Below are positions 3,045-63,647 of a DNA stretch of 64,000 nt, piece by piece (within the stretch, counting starts at the first letter, position 1; the number at the start of each line of letters is the position of its first letter). The stretch spans positions 1 to 64,000 of the forward strand of contig NZ_LVJR01000014.1 of the NCBI RefSeq assembly GCF_001617365.1, read 5' to 3'. A program made the position numbers and the translations under genes. This DNA comes from Rhodanobacter sp. FW104-R8 (lineage in GTDB: Bacteria; Pseudomonadota; Gammaproteobacteria; Xanthomonadales; Rhodanobacteraceae). The notes under the pieces are model-generated. The model saw nothing but the letters and a program-made list of their open reading frames with translations. It was not told where the DNA came from and made no database searches.

Positions 3045-3929
3045 TCAGGCCGCGGCCGCGATGTGCGGTGCGTGGCCGGCGGCGACCACGCGCTCGAAGA
3101 ACGCCGCCGAGCGGTCGATCAGGGTGCGCCGCTCGCGGTCGATGGTGATCATGTGGTAGCTGTCCTCGAGCAGCAGCAGCTCGGTCGGCGCGGCGACATG
3201 GCGCAGCACCAGTTCGGCATTCTTCGGGCTGGCCACGTCGTCGTCGCTGGCGTGGGCGACCAGGCACGGCGCGGTCACCTGCGGCAGCTGGCTGCGTACC
3301 GCGGCGGCGAGGCTGTACATCTCGGCCAGCGAGTACCACGGGTTGCCGGGCAGGCCGGCGGCGGCGCTGTCGCCGCCGAGCATGGCGGTGCTGACCTGCG
3401 CGCGCAGGCGCTCGTCGCGGATGCCGTAGGGCGGCTGCTCCATGAAGCTGCGGCCGCGGCCGATGCCGAGCTTCTTCAGCAACGGCAGCAGGAACGACAG
3501 CCGCGCCATCCGCGGAATGCTCCAGCCGTCGTAGCGGAAGGTGGCGCCGTACACGCCGACGCCGGCGACCTGCCCGGGGCGGTCGGCGGCCAGCTTCAGC
3601 GCCAGCAGCGCGCCCATCGACAGGCCGCCGACGAACAGGTGGTCGACCTTTTCGAGCAGCGCGTCGGCGGCCTGCTCCACGCTGGCGTACCAGTCGCGCC
3701 AGCCGGTGGCGAGCAGGTCCTCGACGTTGCCGCAGTGGCCGGCCAGCTGCATGCCGTGCACGGTGAAGCCGGCGCGGTTGAGGCCCTTGCCAAGCAGCTT
3801 CATTTCCATCGGCGTGCCGGTGAGGCCGTGGATCAGCAGCACGCCACTGCGGCCACCCTCGAAGAAGAAGTCAGTCTGCTGGATCACGCGTTTGCCTTGC
3901 GGGGATGGGTCGCGGCGATTTTCATGCAT
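3045..3929 (-). CDS. Alpha/beta hydrolase, Est30-like carboxylesterase
   Basis: A cytoplasmic serine hydrolase of 294 residues. It has the oxyanion-hole segment LLIHGLTGTP (31-40), the nucleophile elbow GLSMGA (Ser104), a candidate acid in HASDDDVAS (Asp229-231) and the catalytic histidine in DSYHMITID (His259). The W-R-D-W block and the S-Y-H-M-I-T-I-D ending are hallmarks of the Bacillus/Geobacillus Est30-type carboxylesterases. No signal peptide is seen. It sits 25 bp after the exporter adaptor gene and 2 bp before the first SMR gene, in the same direction, so it is probably co-transcribed. In that setting it may deacylate a lipid intermediate; that is inference. Confidence 0.85.
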   Translation of the reverse strand: MHENRRDPSPQGKRVIQQTDFFFEGGRSGVLLIHGLTGTPMEMKLLGKGLNRAGFTVHGMQLAGHCGNVEDLLATGWRDWYASVEQAADALLEKVDHLFVGGLSMGALLALKLAADRPGQVAGVGVYGATFRYDGWSIPRMARLSFLLPLLKKLGIGRGRSFMEQPPYGIRDERLRAQVSTAMLGGDSAAAGLPGNPWYSLAEMYSLAAAVRSQLPQVTAPCLVAHASDDDVASPKNAELVLRHVAAPTELLLLEDSYHMITIDRERRTLIDRSAAFFERVVAAGHAPHIAAAA

Positions 3930-3954
3930 GGCATGGTCGCAGCCGGCGGTTTCC

Positions 3955-4935
3955 TCAGTCTTTCGCGGGCGGCGCGGCGGGCGGCGCCTTGCCGAAACGC
4001 ACCATCACGCGCTGGCCGATGCGCAGGCCCCGGGTTTGACCGGGGTCGGGCTGGTCGAACGCCAGCACGCATTCCACCGTGCGGGCATTGGCGCGCACCT
4101 GCGGGTCGTTCTCCAGCGTGGCCGGGCCGTACACCTTGCCGACGCGCAGCACGTGCGCGCTCCAGGACGCGCCGGCGCGCCCACTGTCGGCGCTCACTTC
4201 CGCCGGCATGCCGGGCTGGATCGCGCCGACGAAGCTGTCGTTGAGTTCCGCGCGCACGATCCGCGGCTTCTGCGGCAGCAGGGTGAACACGGCGCCGGAG
4301 GCGGACGACACGCTGGCGCCGGGCTGCGCCGACACGCGCACCACCTCGGCGTCGAACGGGGCCAGCAGGCTGCGCTGCTTCAGCTCGTAGCGGGCCTCGT
4401 CCAGCTTCTGGCTGGCCATGTCCAGCGCCGCGCGGGCCGCCTGCTGCTCCGCGTCGAGTTGCGCGGCGGCCTCGCCGGCGTCGTCGGCGCTCTGGCCGTC
4501 GCCGGCACCGGCAGCCACGGCCGCGGCCAGCCGCTGCGCGCGCTGCTTCGCCGCCGCCTGCTTGATGCCGAGCAGTTTCAGCTGCGCCTGCGCCTGCTCC
4601 CGCTGCGCTTGCGCGGCATCCACCGCCAGCCGGGCCGGCTCGTCGTCCAGCGCGGCCAGCAGCTGGCCCTGCCGGACATGGTCGCCCTCGTGCACCGCGA
4701 CCCTGGCGAGCACGCCCTCGCGCGGCATCGACAGGCTCAGCAACCCGCCTTCGACGTCGATGCGGCCGCGCGCCACCGCGGCATAGGCGGCGACCGGGCC
4801 GGCAGCGGGACCGGCCGGCGCGGCCGGCCGTGAACAGCCCGCGGCCAGCCAGGTGCTGCACAGCGCCAGCGAGCCGAGCCGTAGCCACCGGGAGACGGCA
4901 GAGCGTTGCGATGGATGGGACAGGAGCGGTTTCAT
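3955..4935 (-). CDS. Periplasmic adaptor (HlyD/DevB-type membrane fusion lipoprotein)
   Basis: A 326-residue membrane-fusion protein linking an inner-membrane ABC permease to an outer-membrane channel. It begins MKPLLSHPSQ and has a lipoprotein signal ending in LAAGC (Cys at about 34), so it is probably lipid-anchored. Then come a biotinyl-lipoyl half (REGVLARVAVHEGDHVRQGQ), an Ala/Gln-rich coiled-coil hairpin (about residues 105-195), the second lipoyl half (LLAPFDAEVVRVSAQPG) and a beta-barrel domain. The ATG at 4935 overlaps the stop of the ATPase gene (ATGA), marking it as the last subunit of the tripartite exporter. Such adaptors serve DevBCA/MacAB-like systems that export lipids or peptides. 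Confidence 0.85.
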   Translation of the reverse strand: MKPLLSHPSQRSAVSRWLRLGSLALCSTWLAAGCSRPAAPAGPAAGPVAAYAAVARGRIDVEGGLLSLSMPREGVLARVAVHEGDHVRQGQLLAALDDEPARLAVDAAQAQREQAQAQLKLLGIKQAAAKQRAQRLAAAVAAGAGDGQSADDAGEAAAQLDAEQQAARAALDMASQKLDEARYELKQRSLLAPFDAEVVRVSAQPGASVSSASGAVFTLLPQKPRIVRAELNDSFVGAIQPGMPAEVSADSGRAGASWSAHVLRVGKVYGPATLENDPQVRANARTVECVLAFDQPDPGQTRGLRIGQRVMVRFGKAPPAAPPAKD

Positions 4936-19313: not shown

Positions 19314-19386
19314 CAAGCCACTTGCGTCACGGTCCGGTGCTCCGCGCTTGCGTGCCGCGCCGATGGTACCCATCTCCGGGAGACCC

Positions 19387-22300
19387 ATGTCATCCCCGCT
19401 CGCCGATTTCCATCCTGCCGTCGCCGCGTGGTTCCGCGGCGCCTTCGCCGCGCCCACCGCGGCGCAGGCGGCGGCGTGGCCGTCGATCCGCGCCGGCCAG
19501 CACACCCTGGTCGCCGCGCCGACCGGCTCGGGCAAGACGCTCACCGCCTTCCTCGCCGCGATCGACGCGCTGGTGCGCGAGGGCGTGGCGCATGGCGGCG
19601 TGCTGGCCGACGCCACCACGGTGGTCTACGTGTCGCCGCTGAAGGCCTTGTCGAACGACATCCACGTCAACCTGGAAGCGCCGCTGGAAGGCATCCGCGC
19701 CGAGCTGGAACAACTCGGCCTGCCCGACGTGGCGATCCGCACCGCGGTGCGCACCGGCGACACCCCGCAGGCGGAACGCAACCTGCTGCGCAAGCTGCCG
19801 CCGCACATCCTGGTGACCACGCCCGAATCGCTGTACGTGCTGCTGGGCTCGGCCTCCGGCCGCGCCATGTTGTCCGGCGTGCGCACGGTGATCGTCGACG
19901 AGATCCACGCCATCGCCGGCAGCAAGCGCGGCGCGCACCTGGCGCTGTCGCTGGAGCGGCTGGAGTCGCTGTGCCGGCGGCGCTTGCTGCGGATCGGCTT
20001 GTCGGCGACACAGAAGCCGATCGAGATGGTGGCTGATTTTCTCGTCGGCACCGGCGAGCACCCCGCTCTTGCCCCTCCCCCTGCCGGCAGGGGGAGGTTG
20101 GGAGGGGGTAAAGCTTTTGATCTTCTTGAAGCAAAGAGCACCCCTCCCCAACCCTCCCCTGCGAGCAGGGGAGGGAGCACAGCAACCATCATCGACGTGG
20201 GCCACAGCCGTCCGCGCGACCTCGCCATCGAAGTGCCGCCGGTGCCGCTGGAAGCGGTGATGTCGAACGATGGCTGGGCGCTGGTCTACGACCGCCTCGC
20301 CCAGCTGGTGCGCGCGCACCGCACCACCCTGGTCTTCGTCAACACGCGGCGCATGGCCGAGCGTGCGGCGCGGCACTTGTCCGAACGGCTGGGCAAGGAA
20401 CACGTGGCGGCGCATCACGGCAGCCTGGCCAAGGAGCTGCGGCTGGACGCCGAGCAGCGGCTCAAGCGCGGCGAACTGCAGGTGCTGGTGGCCACCGCCT
20501 CGCTGGAGCTGGGCATCGACATCGGCGAGGTCGACCTGGTCTGCCAGCTCGGCTCGCCGCGCTCGATCGCCGCCTTCCTGCAGCGCGCCGGCCGCTCCGG
20601 CCACAGCATCGACGGCACGCCGAAGGCGCGGCTGTTCCCGGCTACCCGCGACGACCTGATCGAATGCACCGCCCTGCTCGACTGCGTGCGCCGCGGCGAG
20701 CTGGACGCGCTGGTGATGCCGCCGCAACCGCTCGACGTGCTGGCGCAGCAGATCGTCGCCGAAGTCGCCTGCGCCGAATGGGGCGAGGACGCGCTGTACG
20801 CGCTGGTGCGCCGCGCGCATCCGTACCGCGATCTCGCACGCGGCGAGTTCGACGCGGTGGTGCGCATGCTGGCCGAGGGCTTCACCACCCGCCAGGGGCC
20901 GCGCGCGGCGTATATCCACCGCGACGCGGTGAACCGGCAGCTGCGCCCGCGGCGCAGCGCGCGGCTCACCGCACTGACCTCCGGCGGCACCATTCCCGAC
21001 ACCGCCGACTACAAGGTGGTGCTGGAACCGCAGGCGATCATCGTGGGCACGGTGAACGAGGATTTCGCGGTCGAGAGCATGGCCGGCGACATCTTCCAGC
21101 TCGGCAACGCCAGCTACCGCATCCAGCGCGTCGAGCGCGACCGGCTGCGGGTGGAGGATGCGCACGGCGCGCCGCCGAGCATCCCGTTCTGGCTGGGCGA
21201 GGCGCCGGGGCGCAGCGACGAGCTGTCGCTCGGCGTGTCGCGTCTGCGCGAGGAAATTTCCGCACAGCTGGATGTCGGCGGCGTGCCCGCAGCGATGGCC
21301 TGGCTGTGCGAGCAGCTCGGCCTGGACGAAGCCGCCGCGCAGCAGCTGGTCGACTACCTCGCCCGCGCGCAGGCCGCGCTCGGCGTGCTGCCCAGCCAGC
21401 GCACGCTGGTGCTGGAGCGCTTCTTCGACGAATCCGGCGGCACCCAGCTGGTGATCCACACGCCGTGGGGCAGCCGCATCAACCGCGCCTGGGGGCTGGC
21501 GCTGCGCAAGCGCTTCTGCCGCCAGTTCAACTTCGAACTGCAGGCGGCGGCCACCGAGGACGCGATCGTGCTTTCGCTGTCCACCAGCCACAGCTTCCCG
21601 CTGGAGGAAGTGGCGCACTACCTGCACTCGAACACCGCCGAGCACGTGCTGATCCAGGCCCTGCTCGATGCGCCGCTGTTCCCCGCGCGCTGGCGCTGGA
21701 ATGCGGTGACCGCGCTGGCGCTGCCGCGCTTCACCGGCGGCAAGAAGACCCCGCCGCCGCTGCAGCGGATGAAGAGCGAGGACCTGCTCGCCGCGGTGTT
21801 TCCCGACCAGGTCGCCTGCCTGGAAAACATCGTGGGCGAGCGCGAGGTGCCCGATCACCCGCTGGTCAACCAGACCCTGCACGACTGCCTGCGCGAGGCG
21901 ATGGACGTGGACGGCCTGCTGGCCATCCTGCGCCGGCTCGAAGCCGGCGACATCGCCATCGTGGCGCGCGACCTCACCGCACCCAGCCCGCTCGCCGCCG
22001 AGGTGCTGAACGCCGCGCCTTACGCCTTCCTCGACGACGCGCCGCTGGAGGAGCGCCGCACCCAGGCCGTGCAGACGCGCCGCTGGAACAGCGCCGACGG
22101 CGCCGACGACCTCGGCCGGCTCGATCCCGACGCGATCGCCGGCGTGCGCGAGGAAGCGTGGCCGCGCGTACGCGACGCCGACGAGATGCACGAGGCGCTG
22201 ACCCTGCTGGGCTGCGTCACGGCCGATGAAGTCGCCGCCAACCCCGGCTGGAACGAGTGGCTGCGCGCACTGGCGCGGGCCGCGCGCGCCACCTTGCTCA

Positions 22301-23877
22301 CGGTAGGAGCGCACCCTGTGCGCGATGGCTCTTCGTCACCCGACGAAAGAGCATCGCGCACAGGGTGCGCTCCTACCGCGATCTGGACGTCGGCCGAGCA
22401 GTTGCCGCTGTGGCAGGCGCTGCATCCCGACGCCGCCATGCAGCCGCCGATCGATGCGCCGGCCGAGTACGCCGCGCAGTCGTGGACGCGCGAGGACGCG
22501 CTGCTGGAACTGGTGCGCCATCGCCTCGGTGGACTCGGTCCGGTCACCGTGGATGAACTGGCGCAACCCATCAACGTCGACGCCGGCGAAGCGGAGCAGG
22601 CACTGCTGCGGCTGCAATCCGAGGGCTACGTGATGCAGGGCCGCTTCACGGCCAATGCCGCCGACACCGAATGGTGCGAGCGCCACCTGCTGGCACGCAT
22701 CCACCGCTACACCATCGGCCGGCTGCGCCGCGAGATCGAGCCGGTGAGCCGGCGTGCGCTGATGCGCTTCCTGTTCGACTGGCAGCACGTGTCGGCAGCC
22801 ACCAGGCTGAGCGGGCCGGACGCGCTGGCCGCCACGCTGGCGCAGCTGGAAGGCTACGAGGCCGCGGCCGGCGCGTGGGAGACCGAGCTGCTGCCGGCGC
22901 GCATCGATGACTACTCGATCCACTGGCTGGACGAGTTGTGCCGCGCCGGCCGGATCGGCTGGGCCCGCCTGCGTACGGGCAGCGGTGGCGGCGGCGGTCC
23001 GGTGCGCAGCACGCCGATCGTGCTGTTGCCGCGACGCGAAATGGCCGTCTGGACGTCCGCCGCCGGCGAGCCGCAGGAGGCCCTGTTGTCGTCGCGCGCA
23101 CAAGCCGTCGCCGATGCACTGCAGGAACATGGCGCGCTGTTCTTCGACGAACTGCTCGACCTCGCCCACCTGCTGCGCACCGAACTGGAGGACGCGCTGG
23201 GCGAACTGGTCGCCGTCGGACGGATCAGCGCCGACAGCTTCGCCGGCCTGCGCGCCCTGCTGCTGCCGGCGGCGAAGCGCGACGGCGGCCGGCATCGCCG
23301 GCTGCGCCGGCACCAGCTCAGCGGCATCGAGGATGCAGGGCGCTGGGCACTGGCGCGCACGGCGGCAACGGGTAACGGCAAGGCCGAACCCGACGCCATC
23401 GAACACATCGCGCGCACCCTACTGCGCCGCTACGGCGTGGTGTTCTGGAAACTGCTGGAGCGCGAGGCGCCGTGGCTGCCACCATGGCGCGAACTGCTGC
23501 GCGTGTACCACCGGCTGGAGGCGCGCGGCGAGATCCGCGGCGGGCGCTTCGTCGAAGGCCTGGTCGGCGAGCAGTTCGCGCTGCCCGAGGCGATCGCGCC
23601 GCTGCGCGCGGTGCGCTCGCGCGCGGACGACGGCGAGCTGGTCTGCCTCAGCGGCTGCGACCCACTGAACCTGGTCGGCACCGTGCTGGCCGGCGACAAA
23701 GTGCCGGCGCTGGCCGGCACGCGTGTGCTGTATCGCGATGGCGCGCCGATCGCCGCGCTGGTCGGCGGCAAGCCCGCCGCACTGATCGAGTTGTCGGCTG
23801 CCGACACCCAGCTGGCGAAGCACGCCTTGCTGCGCTACCCGCCGTCGCTGCCGGAAACCCGGGCCGCCGCACACTGA
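19387..23877 (+). CDS. lhr: ATP-dependent helicase Lhr (large helicase-related protein)
   Basis: A 1,496-residue superfamily 2 DNA helicase, similar in length to E. coli Lhr (about 1,540), involved in DNA repair. Visible motifs are Walker [10 protein letters not shown] (43-51), DEIH in [11 protein letters not shown] (about 170), motif [13 protein letters not shown], the RecA2 segment [18 protein letters not shown] and motif [12 protein letters not shown]. These are followed by the long Lhr winged-helix, DUF4145-like and C-terminal regions. The ATG at 19387 follows a GGGAG Shine-Dalgarno. Two segments do not belong to the family: about residues 223-264 ([16 protein letters not shown] onwards) and about 972-997 ([17 protein letters not shown]). 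Both coincide with palindromic repeat elements, yet the frame stays open through both. The gene is divergent from GH3 and is followed after 4 bp by a small membrane-protein gene. Confidence 0.95.
20072..20177 (+). repeat. Two-hairpin repeat element, in-frame copy inside lhr
   Basis: Two GC-rich hairpins (CTCCCCCTGC/GCAGGGGGAGG and CCCTCCCCTGC/GCAGGGGAGGG) flank a spacer with GGGAGGGGGTAAAGC and CACCCCTCCCCAACC. A clearly related copy, in the opposite orientation, lies between emrA and emrB (42725-42838). Here it is translated as an extra loop of about 40 residues between helicase motif III and the RecA2 domain. Confidence 0.85.
22303..22376 (+). repeat. GTAGGAGCGCACC palindrome, in-frame copy inside lhr
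   Basis: A 74-bp element bounded by GTAGGAGCGCACCCTGTGCG and its reverse complement, with a loop of about 23 bases. The same arms, extended to a perfect 27-bp stem, occur at 62539-62611 between nagA and the deaminase gene. In lhr it encodes about 25 residues in a linker region ([16 protein letters not shown]) without breaking the frame. Confidence 0.9.
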
Positions 23878-41504: not shown

Positions 41505-42713
41505 ATGTCCAGCCAGACCCTCCCCGATCCGAGCGGCGCCGCGAGCGCGGGCACGCCGGTCGTGCCGCCACCGAAGAAGAACCCGCGCGGCCTGCTGCTG
41601 CGCCTGCTCGGCGTCGTGGTGCTGCTCGCCGTCGCCGGATGGGCGGCGTGGTACTTCCTCGAAGGCCGCTGGTACGAGGGCACCGACGACGCCTACGTCA
41701 ACGGCAACGTGGTGCAGATCACCCCGCAGGTGCCCGGCACCGTGGTCAGCATCGGCGCCGACGACGGCGACCTGGTGCACGCCGGCGACGTACTGGTGCA
41801 GCTCGACCCCAGCGACGCCGACGTGGCGCTGGCCGAGGCCAAGGCGAACCTGGCCAACACCGTGCGCAAGGTGCGCGGCCTGTACTCCAGCGTCAACGGG
41901 GCCCAGGCCGACGTGGCCGTGCGCCAGACCGCGGTGGACAAGGCGCGCGCCGACTACGACCGGCGCGTGGCGCTGGCGAAGTCCGGCGCGATCTCGGCCG
42001 AGGAACTGGCGCACGCCCGCGACGCGCTGACCAGCGCCGCGAGCAACCTGGTCACCGCGCAGCAGCAGTACCAGACCAGCAAGGTGCTGGTCGACGACAC
42101 CGTGGTCGCCTCGCACCCGGACGTGCAGGCCGCCTCGGCCCGCCTGCGTGCCGCCTTCCTCGACGACGTGCGGGCCACCCTGGTCGCGCCGGTGGACGGC
42201 TATGTGGCCAAGCGCTCGGTGCAGGTCGGCCAGCGCGTGCAGCCCGGCGCCGCGCTGATGGCGGTGGTGCCGCTGCGCGGCGTGTGGGTGGACGCGAACT
42301 TCAAGGAGACCCAGCTCACCCGCATGCGCATCGGCCAGCCGGTGACGATCGAGGCCGACGTGTACGGCGGCGCGGTGGCCTACAAGGGCAAGGTGCAGAG
42401 CCTGGGCGTGGGCACCGGCAGCGCGTTCTCGCTGCTGCCGGCGCAGAACGCCACCGGCAACTGGATCAAGATCGTGCAGCGCATCCCGGTGCGCATCGTG
42501 TTCGACGACCCGGCCCAGCTGGACAAGCACCCGCTGCGCATCGGCATGTCGCTGAACGTGGACGTGAGCCTGCACGACCAGAACGGCCCGATGCTGTCGC
42601 AGCAATCGCCGACCCAACCCGCCTTCAGCACCGACGTATACAAGCAGCAGCTGGCCAAGGCCGACGCGGTGATCACGCAGATCGTCCACGCCAACATGGC
42701 CGGCGGCAAATAG
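41505..42713 (+). CDS. emrA: EmrA-type multidrug efflux adaptor
   Basis: A 402-residue HlyD-family adaptor. A short proline-rich cytoplasmic N-terminus leads to one transmembrane segment (about residues 28-50), then WYEGTDDAYVNGNVVQITPQ, the characteristic T-D-D-A-Y-V start of EmrA. Lipoyl halves (VPGTVVSIGADDGDLVHAG and TLVAPVDGYVAKRSVQVGQR) surround a coiled coil, followed by VDANFKETQLTRMRIGQPV. It begins 8 bases after the channel gene's stop. It bridges EmrB and the outer-membrane factor. Confidence 0.93.
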   Translation: MSSQTLPDPSGAASAGTPVVPPPKKNPRGLLLRLLGVVVLLAVAGWAAWYFLEGRWYEGTDDAYVNGNVVQITPQVPGTVVSIGADDGDLVHAGDVLVQLDPSDADVALAEAKANLANTVRKVRGLYSSVNGAQADVAVRQTAVDKARADYDRRVALAKSGAISAEELAHARDALTSAASNLVTAQQQYQTSKVLVDDTVVASHPDVQAASARLRAAFLDDVRATLVAPVDGYVAKRSVQVGQRVQPGAALMAVVPLRGVWVDANFKETQLTRMRIGQPVTIEADVYGGAVAYKGKVQSLGVGTGSAFSLLPAQNATGNWIKIVQRIPVRIVFDDPAQLDKHPLRIGMSLNVDVSLHDQNGPMLSQQSPTQPAFSTDVYKQQLAKADAVITQIVHANMAGGK

Positions 42714-42724
42714 CAGCGCAACAA

Positions 42725-42838
42725 CTCCCTCCCCTGCTTGCGGGGGAGGGCTGGGGAGGGGTCGCTGTTGATCCTGAGCCAAGAGCCTTACCCCCTCCCG
42801 ACCTCCCCCTGCCCTGCAGGGGGAGGAGTAAGGCAGAC
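42725..42838. repeat. Two-hairpin repeat element between emrA and emrB
   Basis: CTCCCTCCCCTGC/GCGGGGGAGGG and CCTCCCCCTGC/GCAGGGGGAGG hairpins enclose GGGGAGGGGTCGC and CTTACCCCCTCCCG. Read on the minus strand it aligns over its whole length with the copy inside lhr (20072-20177). It fills the 145-bp gap inside an otherwise tightly packed operon and may reduce or tune emrB expression. Confidence 0.85.
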
Positions 42839-42858: not shown

Positions 42859-44385
42859 ATGACCACCGAATTCCGCCCGCCCAACCTGGCCCTGAGCACG
42901 ATCGGCCTGTCGCTGGCCACGTTCATGCAGGTGCTGGACACCACCATCGCCAACGTGTCGCTGCCGACCATCGCCGGCAACCTTGGCGTCAGCAACAACC
43001 AGAGCACCTGGGTGATCACCTCGTTCGCGGTGAGCATGGCGATCGCGCTGCCGCTGACCGGCTTCCTCAGCCGCCGCTTCGGCGAGGTGCGGCTGTTCAC
43101 CGCCTGCACGCTGCTGTTCGCGCTGACCTCGTTCCTGTGCGGCGTGTCGCAGAGCATGGGCATGCTGATCCTGTTCCGCGCGCTGCAGGGCGCGGTGGCC
43201 GGGCCGATGTACCCGATCACGCAGAGCCTGCTGATCGGCATCTATCCGCCGGCCAAGCGCGGCATGGCGCTGGCGCTGCTGGCGATGGTGACGGTGGTGG
43301 CGCCGATCGCCGGCCCGATCCTCGGCGGCTGGATCACCGACAACTATTCGTGGCCTTGGATCTTCTTCATCAACGTGCCGATCGGCATCTTCGCCAGCAT
43401 GGTGGTGGCGAACCAGCTGCGCGCGAAGGAGCAGAAGACCGAGCGGCCGAAGGTCGACTACGTCGGCCTGATCACCCTGATCATCGGCGTGGGCGCGCTG
43501 CAGATCGTGCTGGACAAGGGCAATGACGAGGACTGGTTCAACTCCACCTTCATCATCGTCACCAGCATCGTCTCGGCGATCGGCATCGCGGTGTTCCTGA
43601 TCTGGGAGCTGACCGACAAGGATCCGATCGTCGACCTGAAACTGTTCCGCCACCGCAACTTCACCGCTGGCACGATCGCGCTGATCCTGGCCTACGCGGC
43701 GTTCTTCGCGATCGGCCTGCTGGTGCCGCTGTGGCTGCAGCGCAACCTCGGCTACACCTCGACCTGGGCCGGCTTCGCCACCGCGCCGATCGGCGTGCTG
43801 CCGGTGCTGCTGACCTTCTTCGTGGGCAAGTACGCCACCCACTTCGACCTGCGCACGCTGGCCTCGATCGCGTTCATCGTGATGGCCGGTACCTGCTTCA
43901 TGCGTTCGGACTTCTTCATCGGCATCGACTTCTACCACGTGGCTGTCGTGCAGCTGTGGCAGGGCCTGGGCGTGGCGCTGTTCTTCATGCCGATCCTGAC
44001 CATCCTGTTGTCGGACCTGCAGCAGAACGAGATCGCCGCCGGCTCCGGCCTGGCCACCTTCCTGCGCACGCTGGGCGGCAGCTTCTCCGCCTCGCTCACC
44101 ACCTTGCTGTGGGAGCGCCGCGCAGTGGCCCACCACGAGCAGCTGACCGAACACATCACCGCCTACAGCCCGACCGCGCAGGCGGCGATGGGCCAGCTCG
44201 GCCACGGCGACAACCAGCTCGCCGGCGGCATCATCAACGACATGATCACCCAGCAGGCCTACCAGATCTCGTTCAACGAGGTGTTCCACGCGCTGGGCTG
44301 GATCTTCCTCGCGCTGGTGCTGGTGATCTGGCTGGCCAGGCCGCCGTTCACGCCGAAGGCGCGCACCGTTTCCGGCGGGCACTGA
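42859..44385 (+). CDS. emrB: EmrB/QacA-family MFS multidrug exporter (DHA2, 14 TM)
   Basis: A 508-residue drug:proton antiporter with 14 predicted segments. Diagnostic are FMQVLDTTIANVSLPTIAG in TM1, WVITSFAVSMAIALPLTGFL, the GFLSRRFGEVR motif-A loop, and LIGIYPPAKRGMALALLAMV with motif C nearby (VVAPIAGPILGGWI). The start ATG is 21 bases beyond the end of the repeat element. Last gene of the MarR-EmrCAB operon; a stem-loop follows the stop. Confidence 0.93.
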   Translation: MTTEFRPPNLALSTIGLSLATFMQVLDTTIANVSLPTIAGNLGVSNNQSTWVITSFAVSMAIALPLTGFLSRRFGEVRLFTACTLLFALTSFLCGVSQSMGMLILFRALQGAVAGPMYPITQSLLIGIYPPAKRGMALALLAMVTVVAPIAGPILGGWITDNYSWPWIFFINVPIGIFASMVVANQLRAKEQKTERPKVDYVGLITLIIGVGALQIVLDKGNDEDWFNSTFIIVTSIVSAIGIAVFLIWELTDKDPIVDLKLFRHRNFTAGTIALILAYAAFFAIGLLVPLWLQRNLGYTSTWAGFATAPIGVLPVLLTFFVGKYATHFDLRTLASIAFIVMAGTCFMRSDFFIGIDFYHVAVVQLWQGLGVALFFMPILTILLSDLQQNEIAAGSGLATFLRTLGGSFSASLTTLLWERRAVAHHEQLTEHITAYSPTAQAAMGQLGHGDNQLAGGIINDMITQQAYQISFNEVFHALGWIFLALVLVIWLARPPFTPKARTVSGGH

Positions 44386-61362: not shown

Positions 61363-62511
61363 TCAAGGCGCTGCATCGCCCACGCCGCCGATCCAGCTGC
61401 GCTGCACGCGGTATTCGTCGTCCAGCGCCACCAGGTCGGCCCGATAGCCGGGGGCGATGCGGCCGCGGCTTTCGCCGAGGCCGAGGAAATCGGCGGGATA
61501 GGCGCTGGCCATGCGTGCCGCCTCGTCCAGCGGCAGGCCGAGCAGTTGCACGGCGTTGCGCACCGCGGTGGCCATGTCCAGCGCGGAGCCGGCCAGCACG
61601 CCTTGCGCGGTCTGGCAGATGCCGTCCTTCACGGTGATGGTCTCGCCGTTGAGCACGTAGCTCGGATCGGCCGCGCCGACCGGCGGCATCGCGTCGGTGA
61701 CCAGCAGCATCCTGCCGCGCGGCTTGGCGGCGATCGCCACGCGCAGGCTGGCCGGATGCACGTGGTGGCCGTCGACGATGATGCCGCACCAGCTGCCGGC
61801 ATCCTCCAGCGCGGCGCCGACCACGCCCGGTTCGCGGCTGCCGAACGGGGTCATCGCGTTGAACAGGTGGGTGAAGCCGCGCACGCCGGCATCGAGCGCG
61901 GCGCGGGTGGTGGCGTAGTCGGCCGCGGTGTGGCCGGCGCAGACGATCAGCCCCGCGTCCACCAGCGCGCCGATGCCGGCCAGCGGCACCTGGTCCGGCG
62001 CCAGCGTGATCAACCGCACGCCGCGGTGCGGCGCGCACAGCAGCGCCAGCTCGTCGCGGCCCGGCGCGTGGAAATATTTCGCGTCGTGCACGCCCTTGCG
62101 CGCCGGCGCCAGGTACGGACCCTCCAGGTGGATGCCGAGCACGCCGGGCACGCCTTCGGCCAGTGCCTGCTCCACCGCGGCCAGCGCCGCACGCATCACC
62201 TCCACGCGGTCGCTGATCAGCGTAGGCAGGAAGCCGGTGGTGCCGAAGCGCCGGTGCGCCGCGCCGATCCGGCGCAGCGCCTCGACCGTGGGGGCCTCGT
62301 TGAACAGCACGCCGCCGCCGCCGTTGACCTGCACATCGATGAAGCCGGGCAGCAGCATGGCGCCGCGCAGATCGTGCTGCGGCGCTGAGCGCACGCGTGG
62401 ATCGGATGGCGGCAGCAGATCGGCGATGCACCCGCCGTCGAGCAGCACGGCGAGGTCACTGCGCCAACCATCAGGGGTGAGTACGCGGGCGTTGGTGAGC
62501 GAGTGAAGCAT
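61363..62511 (-). CDS. nagA: N-acetylglucosamine-6-phosphate deacetylase NagA
   Basis: A 382-residue amidohydrolase converting GlcNAc-6-P to GlcN-6-P and acetate in the cytoplasm. It shows PGFIDVQVNGGGGVLFNE, the metal-binding LGIHLEGPYLAPARKG with the catalytic-site Glu, VCAGHTAADY, the THLFNAMTPFGSREPGVVG block, GIIVDGHHVHP and LLVTDAMPPVG holding the catalytic Asp. The ATG at 62511 is used; an earlier in-frame start would have to translate the adjacent palindromic repeat. It lies downstream of the SIS-type deaminase and a GntR regulator gene on the same strand, separated from the deaminase by the 73-bp repeat. Confidence 0.95.
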   Translation of the reverse strand: MLHSLTNARVLTPDGWRSDLAVLLDGGCIADLLPPSDPRVRSAPQHDLRGAMLLPGFIDVQVNGGGGVLFNEAPTVEALRRIGAAHRRFGTTGFLPTLISDRVEVMRAALAAVEQALAEGVPGVLGIHLEGPYLAPARKGVHDAKYFHAPGRDELALLCAPHRGVRLITLAPDQVPLAGIGALVDAGLIVCAGHTAADYATTRAALDAGVRGFTHLFNAMTPFGSREPGVVGAALEDAGSWCGIIVDGHHVHPASLRVAIAAKPRGRMLLVTDAMPPVGAADPSYVLNGETITVKDGICQTAQGVLAGSALDMATAVRNAVQLLGLPLDEAARMASAYPADFLGLGESRGRIAPGYRADLVALDDEYRVQRSWIGGVGDAAP

Positions 62512-62538: not shown

Positions 62539-62611
62539 GTAGGAGCGCACCCTGTGCGCGATGCTTTTGCGCAACGTGACGAAGAGCATCGCGCACAGGG
62601 TGCGCTCCTAC
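62539..62611. repeat. GTAGGAGCGCACC palindrome, intergenic copy
   Basis: A perfect 27-bp stem (GTAGGAGCGCACCCTGTGCG onward, ending GATGCT) with a 19-base loop fills the gap between the deaminase stop and nagA. The arms match the in-frame copy inside lhr at 22303-22376. In this operon it would form a very stable mRNA hairpin that could set the nagB:nagA ratio. Confidence 0.92.
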
Positions 62612-62615
62612 ATGA

Positions 62616-63647
62616 TCAGACCGTTTCGGTGACCTTGTTGAGATGCGGCGGCACGTCGGGGTTGAAGCCGCGGCGCAGCGACAAGGCGCTGGCGGCGCGG
62701 TAGAAGCTCTGGATGGTCAGCAGTGGCGTGCACAGTGCGGGCAGGCCGCCGGCCACCGGCAAGGTGCCGGCGCCCTGCAGCCCGGGCGCGGCCACGAATA
62801 CCTGCGCGCCGCGGCCGCGGAATTCGCGCGCCACCGCCAGCGTGCCGTCCAGGGTGTCGTCGTCCTGGGCGAAACACAGCACCGGGAAATCCGGGCCGAC
62901 CAGCGCCATCGGGCCGTGCTTCACCTCGGCCGCGCTGAACGCCTCGGCGTGCAGGCCGCAGGTTTCCTTGAACTTCAGCGCCGCCTCCAGCGCGATGCCG
63001 AGGCCGTAGCCGCGGCCGACCACGAACAGGTTGTGCGCAGCGGCCAGGCCGTCGACCAGCGCCGACCAGTCGGCGTCCCAACCGGCGCGCAACGCATCCG
63101 GCAACGCGCGCAGCGCGGCGCCCAGTTCCCCGTCGCCGCGCCAGCGGGCGCACAGGTGCAACACCGCGGCCAGTGCGGCGATGTAGCTCTTGGTCGCCGC
63201 CACGCTGCGCTCCGGCCCGGCGTGCAGCGGGATCACCGTGTCGGCCAGCGCCGCCAGCGGCGAATCCTCCACGTTCACCAGCGCCAGCACGCGCGCGCCG
63301 GCGACCTTCGCGGCCTGCGCATTGCGCAGCAGGTCGGGGCTCTTGCCCGACTGCGAGATCGCGATGAACAGCGCGCCCTGCCACTGCTGCTCGGCCGCGT
63401 ACACCGAGGTGACCGACGGCGAGGCCGACGCGGTGACGATGCCGAGCTGGGTCTCGAACACGTACTTCGCGTACGCCGCGGCGTGGTCCGAGCTGCCGCG
63501 CGCGCAGGTGACGATGAAGCGCGGCGGCTGCGCGCGCAGCTCGCGCGCCAGCGCACTCACCACCGCCTCGTTGGCGGCGAACTGGCGCGCGACCACCGTG
63601 GCCGATTCGTGCGCTTCCTGGTACATCAGGGTGTCGCGGGCGTCCAT
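62616..63647 (-). CDS. nagB-II: SIS-domain glucosamine-6-phosphate deaminase (NagB-II type)
   Basis: A 343-residue GlmS-like double-SIS protein lacking the glutaminase domain. It shows IVTCARGSSDHAAAYAKYVFE, LFIAISQSGKSPDLL, AATKSYIAALA, VVGRGYGLGIALEAALKFKE and EVKHGPMALV, the usual sugar-phosphate-binding landmarks, with the S-G-K/Q-S-x-D region. In Xanthomonas and Shewanella this type (NagB-II) replaces classical NagB to convert GlcN-6-P to Fru-6-P and ammonia. The ATG at 63647 is nine bases from the upstream GntR gene stop, so they are co-transcribed. Classical NagB features are absent. Confidence 0.88.
   Translation of the reverse strand: MDARDTLMYQEAHESATVVARQFAANEAVVSALARELRAQPPRFIVTCARGSSDHAAAYAKYVFETQLGIVTASASPSVTSVYAAEQQWQGALFIAISQSGKSPDLLRNAQAAKVAGARVLALVNVEDSPLAALADTVIPLHAGPERSVAATKSYIAALAAVLHLCARWRGDGELGAALRALPDALRAGWDADWSALVDGLAAAHNLFVVGRGYGLGIALEAALKFKETCGLHAEAFSAAEVKHGPMALVGPDFPVLCFAQDDDTLDGTLAVAREFRGRGAQVFVAAPGLQGAGTLPVAGGLPALCTPLLTIQSFYRAASALSLRRGFNPDVPPHLNKVTETV

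Follow-up and report, generated by a model that had tools for sequence, protein, structure and literature searches.

In-frame palindromic repeats of unrelated families at four sites of the helicase gene lhr in Rhodanobacteraceae

Introduction

In-frame palindromes within bacterial genes were first reported as Rickettsia palindromic elements (RPE; Ogata et al. 2000, 2002, as cited in PMC3733652 and PMC10969869); according to these citing accounts, nearly half of the RPE first reported lay in ORFs. A 2013 study of intragenic GTAG/CGTC REPs described GTAG REP dimers in ORFs that encode 20-30 residues, many of them in replication and repair genes, and different REPs at about the same recB site in two Xanthomonas species (PMC3733652). 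The authors proposed that intragenic REPs in linkers are neutral and left open whether palindromes in repair genes are an accident or useful (PMC3733652); lhr and HrpA are unnamed in the main text of that study. Other related systems are REP/BIME elements with a RAYT transposase (PMC2817692, PMC8266576) and MITEs such as ERIC and RU elements (PMC2759123, PMC10969869), which are small, transposase-free and able to fuse in frame.

Here we analyzed a window of 64,000 nucleotides from Rhodanobacter sp. FW104-R8, in which lhr carries two palindromic elements. GTAG REP dimers inside ORFs are the feature shared with the 2013 cases. In contrast to those, GTAG and non-GTAG families return here to the same four sites in a single gene throughout a whole bacterial family, and occupancy, evolutionary rate and comparison genes were measured. 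In one of the lhr elements two GTAG-tagged palindromes stand head to head, as in REP/BIME systems, but no Y1_Tnp gene was found in its own genome. The other, family A, resembles the MITEs in the properties named above, but has two internal hairpins and is known here by its hairpin anatomy alone. As far as the citing papers describe RPE, the likeness lies in several palindromic families, dispersed and in frame within genes for likely functional proteins. The difference is that the share of copies in ORFs is low here, at about 5% (4/80), and that the host is GC-rich and free-living. The Rhodanobacter repeats act like RPE and are not classed as RPE; the resemblance drawn by the first-pass annotation of this DNA holds for the mode of action. 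A literature search on Rhodanobacter repeats returned nothing specific. The case is an unusually rich variant of the in-frame intragenic palindromes already described.

Two palindromic repeats in lhr and their sister copies

The gene, its two repeats and their sister copies are located as follows (window positions and strand):

19387..23877, + strand: lhr (large helicase-related protein), 1496 aa, start chosen by codon usage
about 20069-20182, + strand: family A two-hairpin element at site S1 of lhr, 114 nt, 38 codons, in frame
22303-22376: GTAG REP pair at site S3 of lhr, 74 nt, in frame
22303..22327, + strand: first unit of the GTAG REP pair (GTAGGAGCGCACCCTGTGCGCGATG), in-frame peptide VGAHPVRD
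22352..22376, - strand: second unit, inverted, peptide ..SRTGCAPT
42725..42838, - strand: intergenic sister copy of family A, between genes 41505-42713 and 42859-44385
62539..62611, no strand given: intergenic sister copy of the GTAG REP pair, between genes 61363-62448 and 62616-63647

The lhr ORF runs uninterrupted across both repeats (19348-23877; 1509 aa when counted from the TTG at 19348). Its product contains DEAD, Helicase_C, WH_Lhr, DEAD_assoc and WH3/WH4_Lhr domains, the complete Lhr order, which together with purifying selection on the gene (see below) identifies it as an Lhr helicase. The nearest solved structures are 7lhl and 5v9x, of M. smegmatis Lhr. Orthologs were present in nearly all congeners searched. 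No close ortholog was found in three of them (G026, G037 and G043), and given this absence lhr looks dispensable in Rhodanobacter.

The family A element in lhr forms hairpins at about 20074-20097 and 20152-20175. The REP reads GTAG-GA-GCGCAC-CCT-GTGCGC-GA from 22303 and, inverted, from 22376. In an inverted-repeat search, 22298-22337 paired with 22342-22381 at 88%, 22328-22376 paired with 62539-62587, and 20140-20177 and 20086-20119 paired with 42725-42762 and 42780-42813, respectively, at 91-92%. Hairpins in the two lhr copies are very stable (-76 and -68 kcal/mol). Positions, inverted-repeat search and open ORF thus agree with the first-pass annotation, which had reported two unrelated palindromic families in frame in lhr and sister copies of both in intergenic regions of the window. 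Its figures of ~40 and 25 added residues compare with 38 codons measured for family A and a net gain of 75 nt (25 codons) at S3, taking congeners with a short linker as reference. Rfam at gathering scores yielded no match to the repeats in the 64-kb window; the sole match was an ordinary cobalamin riboswitch (RF00174; 55681-55911, - strand) upstream of a TonB-dependent receptor gene.

Copies across the genome

The FW104-R8 genome (G000; 3.72 Mb in 124 contigs) contains the GTAG pair in about 40 separate places and the two-hairpin element in about 40. For 40 copies of each family, 80 in total, the flanking sequence was assessed by a codon-usage model that had been trained on the window, and a copy outside any continuous reading frame was called intergenic. 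On this basis 76 of the 80 copies are intergenic (39/40 GTAG pairs and 37/40 two-hairpin elements), many of them directly after a stop codon. Because genes cover ~90% of the window, the repeats are strongly depleted from genes, and the bias towards genes considered in the first-pass annotation is not supported. The four intragenic copies (1/40 GTAG pairs, 3/40 two-hairpin elements) reside in lhr (twice), in an HrpA-type helicase carrying DUF3418 and OB_NTP_bind, and in LpdA (L216:1192-2988), where half a family A element occupies the linker that joins the lipoyl domain to the dehydrogenase part. The reading frame is preserved in each of the four, and no clear gene break was seen among the 80 copies. 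On average 3.3 and 3.8 of the six frames are open per element in the two families, and the chance of a random hit keeping the frame open is 0.18-0.21.

The S3 element has the GTAG tag beside a palindromic stem, and its relatives occur as inverted, multicopy and mostly extragenic pairs (about 40 pairs, 39 intergenic). RAYT association of REPs is usual, though not universal. No RAYT gene was detected in the FW104-R8 genome by Y1_Tnp (PF01797) match. Y1_Tnp genes are present in congeners; the flanks of those congener loci that were read were without a matching REP. The S3 element fits a GTAG REP pair at the DNA level, and its mobilization is putative.

Four insertion sites in Lhr

In an alignment of about 115 distinct Lhr ORFs, repeat-derived inserts from at least four distinct families were found at four places only:

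S1, 20038..20196, + strand: linker from RecA-like domain 1 to domain 2; 53 aa here
S2, 21259..21300, + strand: behind the winged-helix part; empty here; family B (CCCTCTCCC) insert in 12/39 congeners
S3, 22270..22380, + strand: junction of Lhr core and C-terminal domain; 37 aa here
S4, 23359..23390, + strand: C-terminal region; empty here; family A or B/C in 18/39 congeners

S1 measures 12-20 aa in many repeat-free species and up to 90 aa in others, and S3 is 12 aa in several congeners that have no insert. For each of the two places there are Lhr orthologs that lack the segment, so the segments are extra. They had been described as interrupting or extending conserved regions; instead, both lie in length-variable linkers that separate conserved blocks.

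A recognizable repeat was present in Rhodanobacter Lhr at S1 in 34/40, at S2 in 12/39, at S3 in 12/38 and at S4 in 18/39 cases, and 31 of the 33 Rhodanobacter genomes with all sites readable had at least one filled site. Families A, B/C and others are present at S1, the GTAG types E and F plus B/C at S3, and families A and B/C at S4; composites of two families occur at several sites. Mapped on a tree built from the backbone (105 rows), repeat presence changed at least 17, 10, 18 and 22 times at S1-S4, counts that pool gains and losses and may be inflated by recombination or labeling noise. The proposal that lhr tolerates inserts is supported by this recurrent use of four sites across the family Rhodanobacteraceae.

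Could these linkers merely be GC-rich, low-complexity sequence that resembles the repeats? The genome is GC-rich and the linkers vary in length. However, motifs of families A and B/C were found in 0 of 896 backbone windows (159 nt each) and that of family E in two, and perfect inverted arms of at least 10 nt were present in 85% of long inserts compared to 5% of backbone windows. Chance resemblance, to which we assign a negligible probability, is ruled out by these near-zero backbone counts and by the occurrence of close relatives of each element at about 40, mostly intergenic, places. Note that the family G (ATTCC) motif occurs in 48/896 and the F motif in 21 backbone windows, making these labels weak when the full palindrome is missing.

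Some inserts are reduced, with one hairpin in G034 and G028 and a possible REP scar in G001; these forms suggest in-frame loss. Two copies of lhr are broken. In a metagenome assembly (L049, 260-470), the family A element at S1 contains a TAA stop. In G040 (L136, reverse strand, about 3500-4900 from the 5' end), a transposase ORF follows the GTAG REP at S3 and splits the gene; from reading the protein, we take the transposase to be of IS110 type. Insertion sequences that target REPs are known.

Selection and predicted structure

Among 262 Lhr pairs with alignable inserts, pN/pS was 0.60 for the insert, a value biased downwards by the requirement of at least 60% identity, and 0.22 for the backbone. 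In the same pairs pS was nearly equal (0.33 and 0.36, respectively), and backbone pN/pS between near relatives was 0.07-0.2. Purifying selection acts on lhr, and the inserted peptides are near neutral. The suggested selection for open loops is best understood as acting on the host gene; selection on the encoded peptide is not supported. AlphaFold2 predicted the S1 insert as coil without secondary structure (pLDDT 32-38) and gave pLDDT values of 52-73 for S3. S2 was placed inside a high-confidence helix in the S2-empty FW104-R8 protein; given this prediction, tolerance at S2 would be less obvious.

Is lhr simply decaying, so that insertions stay? No close ortholog was found in three congeners, and the copies in L049 and G040 are broken. 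However, inserts are restricted to the four sites, nearly all ORFs are open, and the low backbone pN/pS of near relatives largely refutes a pseudogene reading of lhr. We regard decay as very improbable.

Conserved REP arms at S3

In nine species (L009, L016, L027, L029, L035, L059, L127, L132 and L144), the start of the family E REP falls on the identical S3 nucleotide, always in phase 0 (GTA GGA GCG), and two family F REPs start 9 nt further on. The GTAG copies in HrpA and Mfd share this phase, which is partly forced because one alternative frame reads TAG. Where both arms are intact (seven species), the S3 arms differ by 3.4% on average, compared to 35% at third codon positions, and the spacer between the arms is unalignable. 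The REP pair is missing from intermixed species. The arm conservation could stem from insertion having recurred at a single nucleotide, from conversion by other copies of the REP, or from constraint acting on the palindrome itself.

Origin of the inserts

In the reading that we consider probable, miniature palindromes insert widely and persist only where they strike a permissive loop of a functional gene without disturbing the frame. Several palindromic families would disperse through Rhodanobacteraceae genomes, presumably by transposition, landing anywhere, and most genic hits would be purged. To survive, a hit would need a length and frame compatible with an open ORF, for which the random chance is about one in five, and a position within a flexible surface linker. 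Being large, modular and dispensable enough, Lhr may offer four such places and so accumulate unrelated families; the inserts would then shrink, be replaced or be lost, in frame, while the enlarged protein would still be made and work. In support of this reading, the repeats are identified as such, lie in frame, recur at four sites and are depleted from genes, the insert codons evolve near-neutrally, and S1 is predicted to be disordered. Counting against it, no transposase for either element was found (the FW104-R8 genome has no Y1_Tnp match, and this REP does not flank the congener Y1_Tnp loci that were read), S2 lies within a confidently predicted helix, and the S3 REP arms are far better conserved than expected of a neutral, tolerated insert.

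Alternatively, the sites would be preferred landing or conversion targets, resident palindromes receiving others or being overwritten by them through gene conversion, with occupancy reflecting targeting plus tolerance. The single start nucleotide, the conserved arms, the two-family composites at several sites and the IS110-type element that followed a REP into S3 in G040 all point in this direction. On the other hand, the bases adjoining the REP at S3 have no visible consensus, the presence of unrelated families at common sites argues against a single target sequence, and one old insertion followed by repeated loss could yield the same position. Targeting, and with it the first-pass suggestion that lhr attracts repeats, is possible, though clearly less likely than the survival of random hits. 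A more specific version, which we hold to be rather doubtful, is that REP palindromes in lhr and HrpA are kept homogeneous and placed to the nucleotide via re-insertion or conversion from the genomic REP pool, with helicase linkers as privileged targets. If true, mobile palindromes would repeatedly overwrite coding sequence with the frame preserved. The inserts might also serve a function, either by tuning the helicase through a peptide loop or by slowing ribosomes at domain boundaries through mRNA hairpins, different families being recruited for the same job. The sites do lie at or near domain boundaries, the hairpins are very stable and three helicases are among the hosts. However, near-neutral insert codons, decayed stems in several species, the many empty sites (some species having none filled) and the absence of an evident common property among the peptides of unrelated families make usefulness unlikely.

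The lhr gene is a natural record of bacterial proteins absorbing foreign DNA. Inserts have come or gone dozens of times at its four defined sites, each with empty-site relatives, and the gene therefore makes neutrality, function and targeting directly testable. Length differences between orthologs in Rhodanobacteraceae are often repeat insertions rather than new domains.

Other host genes

The notion of lhr as a unique host does not hold, as Mfd, HrpA and ValS carry inserts too. Mfd has them in 12/30 Rhodanobacter genomes at a single site, from four or five families; HrpA in 10/30 genomes at two main sites; and ValS in 5/30 genomes, one of the five with a weak G motif alone. No repeat inserts were found in UvrA (30 genomes), CarB (29) or RecB (28) of Rhodanobacter. 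Among the seven genes tested, lhr is the richest. That UvrA, RecB and CarB are insert-free and the helicases insert-rich counts against survival in permissive loops as a full account, as linker tolerance alone does not predict it; seven genes are too small a sample for claiming a helicase preference.

HrpA (L224, L249, L243 and others) contains in-frame PRAQDAQERPLDMDV peptide repeats at alignment site about 938, their number varying between species. In Mfd (L281, L276), a palindrome of CATTCCGGCGAAAGCCGGA type at site about 448, encoding the peptide RNPV..FRRNDEQ, represents a further unrelated family.
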